DNA of 45,568 nt from Acidobacteria bacterium RIFCSPLOWO2_02_FULL_67_21 (GTDB taxonomy: Bacteria; Acidobacteriota; Vicinamibacteria; Vicinamibacterales; UBA2999): NCBI GenBank assembly GCA_001767195.1, contig MEKU01000056.1, positions 105,109 to 150,676 of the forward strand, given 5' to 3'. Shown piece after piece: positions 38,246 to 44,686 of this stretch (the stretch's first letter is position 1; each line of letters begins with the position of its first letter). The translations under genes and the position numbers were made by a program. The notes under the pieces are model-generated. The model was not told the origin of the DNA, searched no databases, and saw only the letters and a program-made list of their open reading frames with translations.

Positions 38246-39718
38246 ATGGTCGACAAGTTTCGCGAAGAGTGCGGCGTCTTCGGAATCTTCGGGCACACCG
38301 AGGCCGCGAATCTCACGTACCTCGGCCTGTATGCGCTTCAGCATCGAGGCCAGGAGAGCGCGGGGATCGCGGCGTCCGACGGCGCCCTGGTGCGCCATCG
38401 CAAGGCCATGGGGTACGTCAATGAGGCGTTCGACGCCGCCGCGTTGAGCACGCTGCCCGGGTACCTGGCGATGGGCCACGTGCGGTATTCGACCGCTGGC
38501 GAAAGCCGGCTCGCCAACGCGCAGCCGATTGTGGTCGACAGCGTGCACGGCCAGTTCGGCATCTGCCACAACGGCAACCTCGTGAATGCCGGGGAACTGC
38601 GCGGCGAGCTCGTGCGCGAGGGTGCCATCTTCCAGACGAGCAGCGACACCGAGGTCGTCGTGCATCTGTTTGCCCGGTCGCGCGAGGAAGGCAGCGAGCG
38701 GGCCATTGTCGACGCCATCTCGCAGGTGCGCGGGGCCTTCTCCTTCGTGATGATGACGAAGGATCGGCTGATCGGCGTTCGCGATCCGAACGGCTTCCGC
38801 CCTCTCGTCCTGGGCCGGCTCGGCGACGCCTGGGTGATGTGCTCGGAGACCTGCGCCCTCGACCTGATCGGCGCCACGTACCTGCGCGATGTCGACCCGG
38901 GCGAGTTCATCATCATCAGCGCCGCCGGGCTGAAGTCGGTCAAGCCGTTTGCGCCTGCGCCGCAGGCGCAGTGCATCTTCGAGCATGTCTACTTTGCGCG
39001 GCCCGACAGCTACGTCTTCGGCGAGAGCGTCAACGAGGTGCGCACCGAGCTCGGGCGCCGACTGGCGCGCGAGTGCCCGGCCGAGGCCGATGTGATCGTG
39101 CCGATCCCCGACTCCGGCGTGTGCGCTGCCGTCGGGTTTGCCGAGGCCTCGGGCGTCCCGATGCGCGTCGGGCTCATTCGCAATCACTACGTCGGCCGCA
39201 CGTTCATCGAGCCGCAGCAGTCGATCCGGCACTTTGGCGTCAAGGTAAAGCTGAATCCCGTGCGGAGCATCATCGAAGGGAAGCGGGTGGTGCTCGTGGA
39301 CGACTCGATCGTGCGCGGAACCACCAGCCGGAAGATCGTCCGGATGGTGCGCGGCGCCGGCGCGCGTGAGGTTCACATGCGGATCAGCTGCCCGCCCACC
39401 ATTTCACCGTGCTTCTACGGCGTCGACACGCCGCAACGCTCCGAGCTGATTGCCGCCACGCATTCGCTCGAGGAGATTCGCAGGTACCTGGATGCCGACA
39501 GCGTCGGCTATCTGAGCCTCGAGGGGCTCACCGCCTGTGTCAACGGCGGTTCGTCGCGGTACTGCACGTCCTGCTATACCGGGAACTACCCCGTGGCGTT
39601 CCCTCGCGACGAAGCGGCCTACCTGCAGCTCGCGCTCAAGCTGAACTCCGGCTCCGGGCCCGCGGAAGAGCCCGCCCTGCGGCTGTCGACCCTGGAGACG
39701 GATCCGGTCGTAAGCTGA
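38246..39718 (+). CDS. purF: Amidophosphoribosyltransferase
   Basis: The 490-aa protein begins MVDKFREECGVFGIFGH; by analogy to the Bacillus enzyme the eight-residue propeptide is removed to expose Cys as N-terminal nucleophile. Cysteines in QCIFEHVYF, RISCPPTISPC and RYCTSCYTG (CxxC) match the oxygen-sensitive [4Fe-4S] form. The PRPP-binding loop is VVLVDDSIVRGTTSRK. It catalyses the first committed step, PRPP plus glutamine to phosphoribosylamine, and is feedback-inhibited by purine nucleotides in the family. It begins 26 nt after purL. Confidence 0.97.
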   Translation: MVDKFREECGVFGIFGHTEAANLTYLGLYALQHRGQESAGIAASDGALVRHRKAMGYVNEAFDAAALSTLPGYLAMGHVRYSTAGESRLANAQPIVVDSVHGQFGICHNGNLVNAGELRGELVREGAIFQTSSDTEVVVHLFARSREEGSERAIVDAISQVRGAFSFVMMTKDRLIGVRDPNGFRPLVLGRLGDAWVMCSETCALDLIGATYLRDVDPGEFIIISAAGLKSVKPFAPAPQAQCIFEHVYFARPDSYVFGESVNEVRTELGRRLARECPAEADVIVPIPDSGVCAAVGFAEASGVPMRVGLIRNHYVGRTFIEPQQSIRHFGVKVKLNPVRSIIEGKRVVLVDDSIVRGTTSRKIVRMVRGAGAREVHMRISCPPTISPCFYGVDTPQRSELIAATHSLEEIRRYLDADSVGYLSLEGLTACVNGGSSRYCTSCYTGNYPVAFPRDEAAYLQLALKLNSGSGPAEEPALRLSTLETDPVVS

Positions 39719-39723
39719 CGCCC

Positions 39724-40887
39724 GTGCCGCCACGACTTCCGCTTGCGATGGTTGCGCTGATCGCCGCGGCGCCCTCCCCTGCCGTCTGCATCGCAGACGC
39801 GCAGCAGACCTCCCCGGCGCTGAAGCAGCACGTCGACAGCCTCTCGTCGTTCGATTACGCAACCCGGACGAACGCCGCCCGGATGATCCGTCGCGGCGCG
39901 CCGGCCGACGCGGTGTCGGCGCTCGCGGACGCCGTTCGGGGCCATGCCGACCAGTTCGTCCGCTCTCGCGCGCTGGTGCTGCTCACAGGGTTCAACGACC
40001 CCGGAACGCCCGATCTGATGCGGTCGCTCCTGCGCGACCGCAACGACCGCATTCGCGAGGTCGTCTACCGCTGGTTCGAGCGGCACCCGGATCCGGCGCT
40101 GGCCGAATCGCTCGTCGCCGCGCTCGAGACCGAGCAATCGGAGTTCGTTCGTCCGGCGCTCGTGCGTGCGGTGGCCGCCCTGCCCGGCAATGAGACCGCT
40201 CGGCGCGCACTGCTTGCCGAGATCGGGCGTGGATTCGATTTCTTCCGTAGCGCCGTGATCGAAGCGCTTGGGGACTATCGCGCCGCGTACGCGGCGGACG
40301 CTCTCGCCGCTGTTGCGGCGCTGGATGGTCCACTGCAGGATGACGCGATCCTGGCACTCGGACGGATTGGCGGCGACCGGGCGGCGCAGGCGCTGCCGCT
40401 TCCGGTGACGGAGAAGACGTCTCCAGTAGTCACCGCGGCGCTCCAGGCGGCCGGGTGCCTGCTCGGCGGCGAGTGCCGGACCCGGCTCGAGTGGCTCGCC
40501 GGAGCGGCGCGTGATACCGCTCGGCCGGAGGCGGCGCGCGCGGCGGTGGCGGCGCTGGGTGCCGTGGGGCAGCACGACGCGCTAGCGCGGTCGGTCCTCA
40601 TCGCGATGGCGGATGGCGGCCCTGAGGGCATGCGGCACGAGATCGCCATCGCGTTCTCCACGATGGCGCTGCGACGGCCGGGCGAGATGATCGCCTGGCT
40701 CGCCCAGGGGACGGCCAGAGAGCGTGGGATTGTGATGGACCTCCTGCGGGAAGGATTCGAGAGCCTCGAAGAGGATTTCGAGGAGGAGCAGTTCTTTGCC
40801 GCCGCCCGGGCGGCCTACTGGAGCGCAGCCGACGAGTCGGCCACCCGTCGGGTTGCGGCGGCGCTCATCAACAGGCTGGATTTCTGA
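39724..40887 (+). CDS. Exported HEAT-repeat protein
   Basis: The protein is 387 aa from GTG 39724 (ATG 39748 possible). It has an N-terminal signal peptide (basic PPRLPLAM, hydrophobic VALIAAAPSPAV, cleavage near IADA). The rest is alpha-solenoid: repeated helices such as DAVSALADAVRGHADQFVRSRALVLL, TPDLMRSLLRDRNDRIREVV and LVAALETEQSEFVRPALVRAV, i.e. about seven HEAT/PBS-like units, ending with an acidic helix EEDFEEEQFFAAAR. No catalytic motif. Such solenoids bind proteins. It starts 5 nt after purF and ends 2 nt before purM, so it is embedded in the pur operon although it is predicted to leave the cytosol. Confidence 0.75.
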   Translation: MPPRLPLAMVALIAAAPSPAVCIADAQQTSPALKQHVDSLSSFDYATRTNAARMIRRGAPADAVSALADAVRGHADQFVRSRALVLLTGFNDPGTPDLMRSLLRDRNDRIREVVYRWFERHPDPALAESLVAALETEQSEFVRPALVRAVAALPGNETARRALLAEIGRGFDFFRSAVIEALGDYRAAYAADALAAVAALDGPLQDDAILALGRIGGDRAAQALPLPVTEKTSPVVTAALQAAGCLLGGECRTRLEWLAGAARDTARPEAARAAVAALGAVGQHDALARSVLIAMADGGPEGMRHEIAIAFSTMALRRPGEMIAWLAQGTARERGIVMDLLREGFESLEEDFEEEQFFAAARAAYWSAADESATRRVAAALINRLDF

Positions 40888-40889
40888 CG

Positions 40890-41927
40890 ATGGACTACAA
40901 GGCGGCCGGGGTCGACATCGATGCAGGCAACGAGGCGGTCCGGCGGATCCGGGCGCTGGCCCGCTCGACCTTCACCTCGGGTGTGCTCTCTGAGATCGGC
41001 TCGTTCGGCGGCCTGTTCCAGCTCGAATCGTCCCGATTTCGGGACCCCGTGCTGGTGGCGAGCGCCGACGGCGTCGGGACGAAGCTGAAGCTGGCGTTCC
41101 TCATGGGCCGGCACGACACAGTCGGCAAGGACCTGGTCAACCACTGCGTGAACGACATCCTGGTGCAGGGCGCCGAGCCGCTGTTCTTCCTCGACTACCT
41201 GGCGACAGGGCGTCTGGCCCCGGAGGTCACCGAACAGGTGGTGGGGGGCATGGCGAGCGCGTGCCGGGACAACGGGTGTGCGCTGCTCGGGGGGGAAACG
41301 GCCGAGATGCCGGGCTTCTATGCCGACGGCGAGTACGATCTCGCCGGGTTCATCGTCGGGGCCGTCGATCGTCAGCGCCTCATCAGTGGCCGGGCGATTC
41401 TGGTGGGCGACGTGCTCGTGGGCGTTCCCTCGTCCGGGTTGCACACCAACGGCTATTCGCTGGCGCGTCAGATCGTCTTCGAGCGCCTGGGGCTCGCCGT
41501 TGATGCACACGTTCCGGAGCTGGGCCGGACGATAGGGCAGGCGCTGCTCGAGCCGCATCGATCGTATCTGCCGCTCATCCGGCCGCTGCTCGACGGCGGC
41601 CGGATCAAAGGGATGGCGCACATCACCGGCGGCGGCATCACGGAGAACCTCCCGCGAGTCCTGCCCCATGGGACGGCGGCTGTTGTCGACGCCGCCGCGT
41701 GGGAAGTGCCGCCGATATTCCAATGGCTGCGGCGGAACGGCCAGGTGCCGGCGGACGACATGATGCGGACGTTCAATATGGGGATCGGGCTCATCATCGT
41801 GACCGCCCGCGACAAGGCGGAGCCGTTGATGGAGGAGCTGGCCGCGCGGGGCGGCCGCGACGCGCGCGTGATCGGCGAGGTGGTCGCCGGCGAGCCCCCG
41901 TCGGTCAGCTACGTCAATCTGTCGTGA
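40890..41927 (+). CDS. purM: Phosphoribosylformylglycinamidine cyclo-ligase (AIR synthetase)
   Basis: The 345-aa protein has MDYKAAGVDIDAGNEAVRRI, VASADGVGTKLKLAFL, the GRHDTVGKDLVNHCVNDILVQGAEPLFFLDYL block, ALLGGETAEMPGFY and HITGGGITENLPRVLP. It closes the imidazole ring, FGAM to AIR, using ATP. It starts 2 nt after the HEAT gene and overlaps purN by 4 nt (GTGA). Confidence 0.97.
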   Translation: MDYKAAGVDIDAGNEAVRRIRALARSTFTSGVLSEIGSFGGLFQLESSRFRDPVLVASADGVGTKLKLAFLMGRHDTVGKDLVNHCVNDILVQGAEPLFFLDYLATGRLAPEVTEQVVGGMASACRDNGCALLGGETAEMPGFYADGEYDLAGFIVGAVDRQRLISGRAILVGDVLVGVPSSGLHTNGYSLARQIVFERLGLAVDAHVPELGRTIGQALLEPHRSYLPLIRPLLDGGRIKGMAHITGGGITENLPRVLPHGTAAVVDAAAWEVPPIFQWLRRNGQVPADDMMRTFNMGIGLIIVTARDKAEPLMEELAARGGRDARVIGEVVAGEPPSVSYVNLS

Positions 41928-42547
41928 ACCGCCGTCTCGGGGTTCTGATCTCCGGCAGAGGCAGCAATCTCCAGGCGTTGATCGACGCCACGCGCGACGG
42001 GCGGCTGGACGCGGCCATCGCGGTGGTGATCTCGAACCGCGAAGAGGCGGCCGGACTCGAGCGCGCTCGCGCTGCCGGGATTGACGCCGTCGTCATCGGC
42101 CACCGCGACTACCGTTCCCGGCACGATCACGACCGCGCGCTTGTACGCGAGCTCACGGCCCGGGGCGTCGGGCTCGTCTGCCTGGCCGGATACATGCGGC
42201 TCGTGGGCCCCGTGCTGCTCGACGCATTTCCCGATGCGGTCCTGAACATTCATCCCTCATTGCTGCCGGCGTTCCCGGGGCTCGATGCCCAGGCGCAGGC
42301 CATCGCGCACGGTGTGAAGGTCAGCGGTGTGACCGTGCATCTGGTCACCCACGAGCTCGACGGCGGGCCGATCGTGCTGCAGCGCGCCGTCCCGGTTCTC
42401 GAGAACGACACGGCCGACACGCTGGCCGAACGCATTCTGGTGGAGGAACACCGCGTCTATCCCGAGGCGGTGCGGATCGTCCTGGACGGCGGCTGGCGGA
42501 TCGAAGGCCGCCGCTTCCGGCGGACGGGCGCGCCCGGATCCGCCTAG
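41924..42547 (+). CDS. purN: Phosphoribosylglycinamide formyltransferase
   Basis: The 207-aa protein has LGVLISGRGSNLQALIDA, VISNREEA, CLAGYMRLVGPVLLDAFPDAVLNIHPSLLPAFPG (catalytic Asn/His) and GVTVHLVTHELDGGPIVLQ (catalytic Asp). It transfers formyl from 10-formyl-THF to GAR in step 3 of the pathway. GTG start overlapping purM. Its TAG shares bases with the convergent phosphoesterase stop in CTAG. It closes the pur operon. Confidence 0.96.
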   Translation: MNRRLGVLISGRGSNLQALIDATRDGRLDAAIAVVISNREEAAGLERARAAGIDAVVIGHRDYRSRHDHDRALVRELTARGVGLVCLAGYMRLVGPVLLDAFPDAVLNIHPSLLPAFPGLDAQAQAIAHGVKVSGVTVHLVTHELDGGPIVLQRAVPVLENDTADTLAERILVEEHRVYPEAVRIVLDGGWRIEGRRFRRTGAPGSA

Positions 42548-43368
42548 ATCTGCGAGGGCCGCTTCAGCGTCAGGATCGCCACTTCCGGCGGGCAGTTGAT
42601 GCGCATCGGCACGTATACGGTGCCGATGCCCCGGCTGACGAAGATAGACGTGTTCTCGCGCGATCCGAGGCCCGAGAGGATTGGAAACCGGCGGCGGGCG
42701 ACGGCGCCGACGCCCGGAATGACGACCTGGCCGCCGTGCGTGTGGCCCGAGAGCACTGCCGGGACGTTGAAGGCGGCCGCCTCGGTGAGCCGCCGCGGGT
42801 CGTGGGCCAGCAGGATGACGGTCTCCCCGGCGTTGCGCAGCACCCGTGCGAGGTCCTCGGGGCGGCGGGTCCAGAAACGCACGCCGGCGAGCTCGAGCGG
42901 CTCGCCCCGGATTTCAATGCGCGTCCGGGCGTCCTTGAGCACCTCGATGTGCCGGGCGGCCAGAGCGGCGGGCATGTCCCGGTCATCGTCATGATTGCCG
43001 AGGATGGCGAAGACGCCGTGAGGGGCGCGCAGCGGCGAGAGCAGCTCGGCCACCGGCCCGACGAACGCGCGGTTGCCGAACGTCACGTAATCGCCCCCCA
43101 GGACGATCAGATCCGGCTGCTGTGCGAGCGTCAGCCGCACCGCCGCCGAGACGTCGTCGGCCGGTACGGTGCTGCTGTGGTGGATGTCGGTGAGAAATCC
43201 GATCCGCAGGCCGTCAAGCGCAGGGGCGAGCCCCGAGACGGGGAGCGCGGCTTGGGTGATGCCGAGCCGGTGCCGTTCGTACGCGACGCCGTACGCCGAG
43301 GCGCCGGTGAGTGCGCCCACGCTGGTGGCGAGCAGTCCTTTGATCGCCGTGCGGCGGCTGAGGAGCAT
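42544..43368 (-). CDS. Tat-exported YkuE-like metallophosphoesterase
   Basis: From ATG 43368 the 274-aa protein begins MLLSRRTAIKGLLATSVGALTG, a twin-arginine signal. Metal ligands follow in order: FLTDIHHSS (DxH), LGGDYVTFGN (GD), AILGNHDDD (GNHD), ILLAHDP and LSGHTHGGQVVIP (GHxHGGQ). This is the membrane-associated/periplasmic calcineurin-like hydrolase family that includes YkuE and LpxG-like enzymes. A longer reading from 43419 would add residues encoded by the intergenic repeat at 43378-43397 and is rejected. It is divergent from tyrS. Confidence 0.88.
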   Translation of the reverse strand: MLLSRRTAIKGLLATSVGALTGASAYGVAYERHRLGITQAALPVSGLAPALDGLRIGFLTDIHHSSTVPADDVSAAVRLTLAQQPDLIVLGGDYVTFGNRAFVGPVAELLSPLRAPHGVFAILGNHDDDRDMPAALAARHIEVLKDARTRIEIRGEPLELAGVRFWTRRPEDLARVLRNAGETVILLAHDPRRLTEAAAFNVPAVLSGHTHGGQVVIPGVGAVARRRFPILSGLGSRENTSIFVSRGIGTVYVPMRINCPPEVAILTLKRPSQI

Positions 43369-43377
43369 GGCGGCTTG

Positions 43378-43397
43378 CCCTGAACGAAGTCGAAGGG
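43378..43397. repeat. Short interspersed repeat (CCCTGAACGAAGTCGAAGGG)
   Basis: This partly palindromic 20-mer lies in the 49-bp gap between the phosphoesterase and tyrS starts. From general knowledge, near-identical sequences recur between and inside genes of many unrelated bacteria and give spurious 'LRSGQA'-type peptides when translated. Function unknown. Confidence 0.5.
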
Positions 43398-43417
43398 CCG
43401 GTTTATAGTAGCGGCTC

Positions 43418-44686
43418 ATGGACCTTTATGGCGAGCTTGAGTGGCGCGGCCTGATCTACGACGCGACCGAGGGTGTGCGCGAGCTGCTGGCGCGCGAGAA
43501 GGTCACGACGTACGCCGGCTTCGATCCGACGGCGGCAAGCCTGCACGTCGGCCACATCCTGCCGATTCTGGCGCTGGCTCGACTGCAGCGGTTCGGGCAC
43601 CCTCCAATTGCCGTCGTTGGCGGAGGCACGGGGCTTATTGGAGACCCGAGCTTCAAGGCGTCGGAGCGCGCCCTGCTGACCGCCGAGCAGGTGGAGGCCC
43701 ACGTCGCCGGCATTCGGACGCAGCTTGCCCGCTTTCTGGACTTCGAGAGCCGGGCCGTGCCGGCGCGCCTCGTCAACAATGCGGAGTGGCTGACGAAACT
43801 CGGCGCCATCGAGTTCATGCGCGACGTCGGGAAGCATTTCACCGTCAACGGCATGATGGCGAAGGAGTCCGTGAAGCGCAGGGTTGAAAGCGAGGAAGGC
43901 ATCTCCTATACGGAGTTCAGCTATCCGCTGCTCCAGTCCTACGACTTCCTGGTCCTGTTCGACCGCTTCAACTGCACGCTGCAGATCGGGGGCAGCGATC
44001 AGTGGGGCAACATCACGGCCGGCATGGACCTGATCCGGCGGGTCCGGGGCCGCAAGGCGCACGGGCTCGTGCTGCCGCTGCTGATGACGGCGGCCGGGAC
44101 GAAGTTCGGCAAGACGGAAGCGGGAAGCGTGTGGCTCGATCCGTCGCTGACGCGTCCGTATGAGTTCTATCAGTTCTGGCTGAACACCGACGATCGTGAT
44201 GTCGTGACGTACCTGAAGTTCTTCACGTTCCTCGATCGGCCCCGCGTTGCGGAGCTCGAGGCGGCCACCGCACGTGAGCCCGAGAAGCGTCATGCGCAGC
44301 GCGAACTGGCGCGCGAAGTGACGCGCCTGGTGCACGGCGATCAGGCCGTTCTGGACGCGGAGACGGCGTCGGCGGCGCTGTTCTCCGAGCGGGTCACGGC
44401 GATGACGCTCGAGCAGATCCGCGAACGCCTGGCCAACGTGCCGTCGCTGACGATTGCCCTGCGCCAGGACGGGTGGTCGGCGGTCGACCTCCTGGCCGAG
44501 TCCGGCGTGACGAAATCGAAGAGCCAGGCGACGCAGCTCATTCGCGGCGGCGGGATCTACATCAACGATCGGCGGATTACGGACGAGCGAGAGCGTGTGA
44601 CGCCCGATCAGGCCGTTGCGGGGCAGGTGTTCGTCGTTCGCAAGGGCAAGAAGGACAATTATCTCGTCAACATCGCGCGCGGTTGA
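43418..44686 (+). CDS. tyrS: Tyrosyl-tRNA synthetase
   Basis: The 422-aa class I synthetase has the HIGH equivalent in PTAASLHVGHILPI, the tyrosine-binding GGSDQWGNITAG block and the KMSKS equivalent KFGKTEAG. A C-terminal S4 RNA-binding domain closes it (about 355-420, TKSKSQATQLIRGGGIYINDRRI). It charges tRNA-Tyr. No T-box-like leader is possible, because only 49 bp separate it from the divergent gene. It is followed by the rRNA control region. Confidence 0.97.
   Translation: MDLYGELEWRGLIYDATEGVRELLAREKVTTYAGFDPTAASLHVGHILPILALARLQRFGHPPIAVVGGGTGLIGDPSFKASERALLTAEQVEAHVAGIRTQLARFLDFESRAVPARLVNNAEWLTKLGAIEFMRDVGKHFTVNGMMAKESVKRRVESEEGISYTEFSYPLLQSYDFLVLFDRFNCTLQIGGSDQWGNITAGMDLIRRVRGRKAHGLVLPLLMTAAGTKFGKTEAGSVWLDPSLTRPYEFYQFWLNTDDRDVVTYLKFFTFLDRPRVAELEAATAREPEKRHAQRELAREVTRLVHGDQAVLDAETASAALFSERVTAMTLEQIRERLANVPSLTIALRQDGWSAVDLLAESGVTKSKSQATQLIRGGGIYINDRRITDERERVTPDQAVAGQVFVVRKGKKDNYLVNIARG

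Follow-up and report, generated by a model that had tools for sequence, protein, structure and literature searches.

The repeat fold of the natural HEAT_2 family (Pfam PF13646) is shared by the designed alphaRep binders. The cyanobacterial proteins CpcE/CpcF and NblB are cytosolic HEAT proteins related to the phycobilisome. NTT-HEAT fusion nucleotide transporters have been described in bacteria (PMC5381601). The window analysed here, a stretch of 45,568 nucleotides from Acidobacteria bacterium RIFCSPLOWO2_02_FULL_67_21 (order Vicinamibacterales), encodes between purF and purM a 387-residue HEAT-repeat protein, as given by the open reading frame and its translation. Pfam HEAT_2 matched this protein in five stretches with 51.1 bits against a cut-off of 27.7 and was the sole Pfam family above its cut-off, accompanied by a sub-threshold match to GlgS (E ≤ 1). 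A search of PDB sequences returned 23 distinct ones at E ≤ 0.01, namely designed alphaReps and alphaRep fusions, one HEAT-domain protein, deoxyhypusine hydroxylase and epoxyqueuosine reductase. The best profile match named as an alphaRep was found at 1e-25 and the synthetic fusion 'E4-NB2' at 7.7e-29. The window protein differs from these HEAT_2 and alphaRep proteins in being natural and probably exported, in the conservation of a cysteine pair and of a C-terminal stretch, and in a distribution confined to a single order, where its family lies almost without exception at the same junction of the purine operon. The likeness to the NTT-HEAT fusions of PMC5381601 is a HEAT_2 domain tied to nucleotide handling, but the window protein has no NTT domain (PF03219).

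The genes purL, purF, the HEAT gene, purM and purN are co-directional in the window. The upstream neighbour purF (amidophosphoribosyltransferase; 38246-39718, plus strand, as are all features of this operon given below) scored 546.8 bits against a cut-off of 350 with NCBIfam TIGR01134, and the downstream neighbour purM (phosphoribosylformylglycinamidine cyclo-ligase; 40890-41927) scored 401.9 bits against 236.35 with TIGR00878. The purF stop ends at 39718, the HEAT gene runs from a GTG at 39724 to its stop at 40887 and the ATG of purM lies at 40890, so that the gaps of 5 nt and 2 nt reported initially were confirmed from the coordinates. The GTG start is supported by the relatives L002-L006, in which a GTG likewise follows the purF stop after 4-6 nt. 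The absence of a catalytic motif was likewise upheld, as no enzyme family was found in the protein by Pfam (E ≤ 1) or NCBIfam (E ≤ 0.001). Rfam at gathering scores indicated no known RNA control element such as a riboswitch; its only match in the window was the start of a 16S rRNA gene, which lies at the very end of the contig (window 45222-45568). A YaeI-like phosphodiesterase gene (window 42544-43419, minus strand) faces the purine operon; its product scored 129.7 bits against a cut-off of 188, and the gene recurs past purN in many relatives. The family profile found no relative of the HEAT protein elsewhere in its own genome; its only other hits there were two weak stretches of generic HEAT type (E 0.011 and 0.26), both within a single open frame.

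The solenoid proposed in the initial annotation was borne out by a confident AlphaFold2 model (mean pLDDT 92.8, pTM 0.88), in which residues 31-384 (39814-40875) form 22 helices in HEAT-like pairs and residues 1-30 are poorly predicted. The closest matches were HEAT/ARM solenoids; Foldseek and VIA-align returned alphaRep, importin, catenin and other solenoids, within the folds that Foldseek picks up. The top VIA-align row was chain A of the CpcE-CpcF complex (5n3u; Z 16.6, rmsd 6.9 over 244 residues), tied within 1 in Z with several alphaReps, which aligned over parts of the solenoid at Z 14-16; such scores for repeat folds may reflect the common arrangement only. Membership of the CpcE and NblB families was rejected, with 18.8 bits against a cut-off of 330 (NCBIfam NF058502) and 20.3 bits against 300 (NF045915), respectively. 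The weak match to OloA (PADLOC PDLC03925; 21 bits, E 4.3e-5, positions 60-265 of 596) would be explained by shared HEAT repeats, and the setting here is a purine operon. No description of the family was found among the matches listed in the open-licence literature. The family is undescribed and of a known kind, that of HEAT-repeat binding proteins, and it is unusual in the fidelity of its place.

The column entropy, pooled over all 22 helices, was 1.25 bits for second helices against 1.82 bits for first helices, the labels being assigned by simple alternation. This difference was reached by none of 5000 column shuffles and was strongest in repeats 2-6. The most conserved part comprises the second helices of repeats 1-6 (residues 45-215; 39856-40368). 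The C-terminal stretch of residues 350-366 (40771-40821) had the lowest entropy of the first helices, 1.10 bits, and its invariant or nearly invariant residues are E350, D351, E355, F357, R362, Y365 and W366. In HEAT solenoids the second helices line the inner face. A binding site on the inner face, made of the conserved second helices, is therefore the natural inference by analogy with other HEAT solenoids. Part of this conservation will be structural, and the pattern may reflect HEAT structure and not a binding site.

The signal-peptide-like N-terminus covers residues 1 to about 27 (39724-39804), with a putative cleavage site at its end. The export test was home-made and required, ahead of the core, an 11-residue stretch with a mean Kyte-Doolittle value of at least 1.6, the starts being chosen by rule. 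The window protein has such a stretch with a mean of 2.51 after a net positive n-region. The threshold was passed by 50 of the 54 family members, the window's own included (median 2.75), and a net positive n-region was present in 44 of the 54. Among the controls it was passed by 0 of 55 PurM, 1 of 41 PurF and 12 of 32 PurN N-termini (beginning at residue 1-3), where the regions compared were unequal, reaching up to the core in the family and covering the first 54 residues in the controls. Since 12 of 32 PurN N-termini pass 1.6, only the higher hydrophobicity values are telling; the highest value in the PurM, PurF and PurN controls was 2.18, and 48 of the 54 family members exceeded it. In the four failing members (L013, L015, L016 and L078) a hydrophobic stretch can be read in the same frame immediately ahead of the chosen start. 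A small-residue motif test was passed by 53 of 54 and is too lax to weigh.

The cysteines of the mature part were also compared. Cys245 (40456-40458) and Cys251 (40474-40476) are kept in 53 of 54 members and are both missing in the exception, L030; the mature part has two cysteines in 45 members, three in eight and none in one. In the AlphaFold2 model both residues lie at facing ends of the adjacent helices 234-246 and 251-263. This pattern matches what would be expected of an exported protein with one structural disulfide, the disulfide itself being putative. By the hydrophobicity measure the window protein and nearly all family members look as though they carry a signal peptide, which agrees with the initial annotation. 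The alternative offered there, a misread export signal, is unlikely on these sequences, with 50 of 54 N-termini hydrophobic, the stretch of the other four found upstream in frame and the cysteine pair kept in 53 of 54. The export of the HEAT protein is thereby supported indirectly.

The order Vicinamibacterales consists of soil and water bacteria. The family was collected from 84 loci, of which 8 without a HEAT match (tblastn) were removed and 15 duplicates merged to leave 61; removal of 7 incomplete ones gave the 54 members, with the window's own gene included as L001. Profile A1 was built on 53 rows, L050 being left out for its long N-terminus, and a carrier was defined as a genome with a match to A1 at E ≤ 1e-10. 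The HEAT gene is carried by 102 of the 162 order genomes searched, and by 65 of 100 among those of good quality. The outcome that would have refuted the initial annotation, a gene confined to the present genome, thus did not occur, and the observation stands. Three carriers (G034, G345 and G354) have more than one match each, covering different parts of the protein and read as fragments of one gene. Among 297 genomes drawn evenly from the phylum, with the best six candidates of each genome considered and the same class outside the order represented by two genomes only, full-length matches were found solely within the order. Outside the order the same draw gave partial matches (E 3.1e-7 to 9.1e-4), which were read as generic HEAT, and a profile of the C-terminal 111 residues gave three weak matches (E 0.0016, 0.0068 and 0.0093). 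Other phyla were covered by a peptide-pattern scan of genome contigs, which picks up close relatives. It returned 38 loci in records named Acidobacteria/Acidobacteriota, Vicinamibacteria/Vicinamibacterales, Luteitalea and Candidatus Sulfopaludibacter; two records named Acidimicrobiia were read as mislabelled order members (G054 and G029). Some leads were discarded: a second match in G024 (C81) reads as a sigma-54-type regulator and was put down to chance, a seemingly long open frame in G054 was a run of N, and an original absence of the gene from the families f4 and f11 was ruled out by G368 (f11), which carries it.

The synteny survey suggested in the initial annotation revealed that the embedding recurs. 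All 162 order genomes were also screened for PurM and PurF (E ≤ 1e-30 and E ≤ 1e-40, respectively), and the HEAT gene adjoins purF and/or purM in 101 of 102 carriers, which is far beyond chance. These counts omit second or partial PurF and PurM matches (for example in G333, G403, G405 and G343) and one short HEAT fragment of G354, and PurF positions are those among the matches listed. In 87 carriers purF lies upstream and purM downstream on one contig and one strand; both gaps, measured to the match edges, stay within 400 nt in 83 of these. In G034, G345 and G354 both neighbours are present and split over two contigs, each with a fragment of the HEAT gene. Among these 90 carriers with both neighbours, a gap of at least 400 nt was found in five (G024, G040, G345, G411 and G413). 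A further 11 carriers have one neighbour only; among these, in G351 the contig ends 137 nt past the match, in G054 a run of N follows the HEAT gene, in G377 and G425 the HEAT match starts at base 1 of the contig, and in G391 purM starts at base 3 of another contig. A purM match was present in 43 of the 60 non-carriers, and in all 43 purF adjoins purM at a distance of -4 to 327 nt; the remaining 17 had no purM match at E ≤ 1e-30 and were not judged.

Other features of the flanks were recorded alongside. GMC-type oxidoreductase genes (names from reading) lie between purM and purN in L069, L073, L076 and L078, preceded in L073 and L078 by a gene like gluconate dehydrogenase subunit 3, so that other probably exported proteins are encoded beside the purine operon. 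Transposase genes of the REP-associated type, called by reading from an N-terminal MPRR...NR motif or its like, recur in the purM-purN gap of L052, L072, L073, L078 and L080. In three order genomes of 90-98% completeness (G036, G041 and G043) PurM and PurF both went unmatched (E ≤ 1e-30 and E ≤ 1e-40, respectively); their purine genes are missing, very divergent or in unassembled parts.

The history of the gene was analysed on a tree of PurF and PurM obtained by a quick IQ-TREE search, with 60 rows (37 carriers, 21 non-carriers and 2 outgroup); L010 (G016) was left out, as its locus holds no purF or purM. The carrier label needs 13 changes on this tree, at least 8 of which are forced by well-supported branches. 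Label changes alone cannot tell losses from regains. The distances of the HEAT tree and the PurF+PurM tree correlated with r = 0.68 (34 rows), where the maximum of 2000 permutations was 0.22, which shows that the gene was inherited mainly vertically. Relics of the gene were searched in 35 of the 43 empty purF-purM junctions, translated and compared with a profile of the last 45 residues, a relic being a forward-frame match below E 0.01 with E-values valid for this small set. Four junctions carried one: G011 (2e-7), G009 (4.7e-4), G397 (0.0032) and G012 (0.0036). The other 31 junctions held no relic at this level, and the reverse-strand frames of the 35 gave no match below it (best E 2.0). G011 belongs to the same genus as the carrier G026; around a deletion in its junction it retains the beginning of the signal-peptide-like region and 28 C-terminal profile positions, and the phylum search with the C-terminal profile recovered the same relic (E 0.0064). 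The four relic-bearing loci (L085, L086, L089 and L184) are useful for dating losses. The correlation of distances together with the relics speaks for an early gain with repeated loss rather than repeated arrival, and some transfer is possible.

Where the gene is kept it is under purifying selection, weaker than that on purF. In nine pairs of relatives its dN/dS was 0.09-0.28 against 0.02-0.12 for purF, the HEAT value being higher in every pair; purM gave 0.08-0.24 in six pairs and exceeded the HEAT gene in two. No internal stop was present in the HEAT matches of carriers, among the matches listed.

The sole carrier with neither purF nor purM beside the gene is G016, where a contig of 3.6 kb holds the HEAT gene close to tilS and a VOC-type gene (names from reading), and purF and purM adjoin each other on another contig. 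The relocated copy retains the hydrophobic N-terminus and both cysteines. The TilS of this contig has 70-74% identity to those of G009, G015, G026 and G000 and 55% to that of G005, and gave no match in G013 and G031. G016 also has a second, partial TilS match (residues 142-195, 96%), which ends a different contig and by reading is the remainder of this tilS gene. In G026, G009 and G015 the flanking gene, by reading like deoxyhypusine synthase, lies next to tilS, some 160-250 nt separating the two matches; in the region compared in the window's own genome (G000) tilS was found and the deoxyhypusine-synthase-like gene was not. By these comparisons the contig fits its genome, and a foreign contig is also possible. 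The initial annotation had described the gene as locked in the operon; this holds for its position, in 101 of 102 carriers, and fails for any need of it, in view of the 13 label changes, at least 8 of them forced, and of the copy that G016 keeps elsewhere.

Taken as a whole, the data are best read as an exported HEAT binding scaffold that rides on the purine operon, a reading which we consider probable, with some room for others. An ancestor within the order would have gained the HEAT gene between purF and purM. The gene would be transcribed with the operon, presumably from the operon promoter, and lying a few bases from its neighbours it would be co-transcribed and so, as a rule, kept in place or lost. 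The protein would be exported by Sec, its signal peptide being cleaved near residue 27 after export, and would be soluble in the periplasm or otherwise outside the cytoplasm. A disulfide between Cys245 and Cys251 would staple the solenoid. The second helices of repeats 1-6 and the C-terminal stretch with its E, D, R and W residues may form the binding surface, and the target would be a single envelope partner, either a protein or a peptide, bound by a scaffold without an enzyme motif of its own. The tie to purines would be shared transcription and not chemistry. The gene looks like a passenger and not a part of purine synthesis, because its many losses have left the operon together.

The fidelity to one site across the order could mean that co-expression with purF and purM matters. 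This is the core of a second explanation, which we consider rather unlikely and which corresponds to the envelope option of the initial annotation: the protein would be exported for an envelope function, and co-production with PurF and PurM would purposely adjust its amount to growth rate or to the supply of purines. Such coupling would account for 101 of 102 carriers keeping the gene by purF or purM though the purL, purQ and purN context varies (in several relatives purL and purQ are absent from the upstream flank taken, or purN is kilobases distant), and for HEAT gene starts that overlap or nearly touch purF in many relatives. However, purF and purM stand together in 43 of 43 non-carriers as well, so the fidelity may reflect merely a stable junction; the G016 copy persists outside that junction, and presence changes often on the PurF+PurM tree.

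A cytosolic scaffold or assembly factor for the purine enzymes, whose apparent signal peptide is a misread start, had also been put forward. The position between two purine genes would suit it, as would one in-frame fusion with PurM in G359. There, a 697-codon open frame (L169, G359:C521, 1628-3721) joins a shortened HEAT protein in frame to PurM and is the only purM match of that genome; the HEAT part lacks its last part and keeps the signal-peptide-like N-terminus, and the PurM part lacks its first residues. The fusion could reflect misassembly, or translation of PurM could begin at an ATG that precedes its conserved part by four codons. As a single exported chain the product would be at odds with export or with a functional PurM; were the fusion real and expressed as one chain, it would fit poorly with the exported scaffold favoured above. 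Against an assembly factor stand the conserved hydrophobic N-terminus and cysteine pair, the 43 genomes with an intact purF-purM junction that manage without the gene and G016, which keeps it apart from the operon; the repeated loss and the one relocation argue against a factor that purine enzymes need. To our knowledge PurF and PurM do not need such a factor elsewhere, and this role is disfavoured to the point of being improbable. Very improbable indeed is a partner of an NTT-family membrane nucleotide transporter, for which the fusions described in PMC5381601 and a nucleotide link suiting a purine operon would speak, but PF03219 at E ≤ 1e-10 is present in at least 24 of 162 order genomes (at least 16 of 102 carriers and at least 8 of 60 non-carriers, lower bounds as many matches lie near the threshold), in shares so alike that they show no association with the HEAT gene, and was not found in the own genome at that threshold.

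The preferred reading remains that of an exported scaffold carried by the purine operon, and a further suggestion is rather doubtful at present: the amount of the periplasmic scaffold could be set by the operon, so that an envelope process would follow nucleotide status or growth rate. That process might, for example, be the assembly or turnover of one envelope complex, and a dispensable link between purines and the envelope would have stayed at one site through the history of the order. The locus is a clear example of how an order can keep a non-enzymatic, probably exported protein inside a core metabolic operon, and the example comes with counts of where the gene was kept, where it is absent, where relics are left and where it moved once. 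If co-expression matters, nucleotide synthesis would be tied to the envelope in these bacteria. If it does not, the family would serve as a natural control, indicating that a gene can be tightly embedded in an operon and strongly syntenic without sharing its pathway, contrary to a common assumption in genome annotation.
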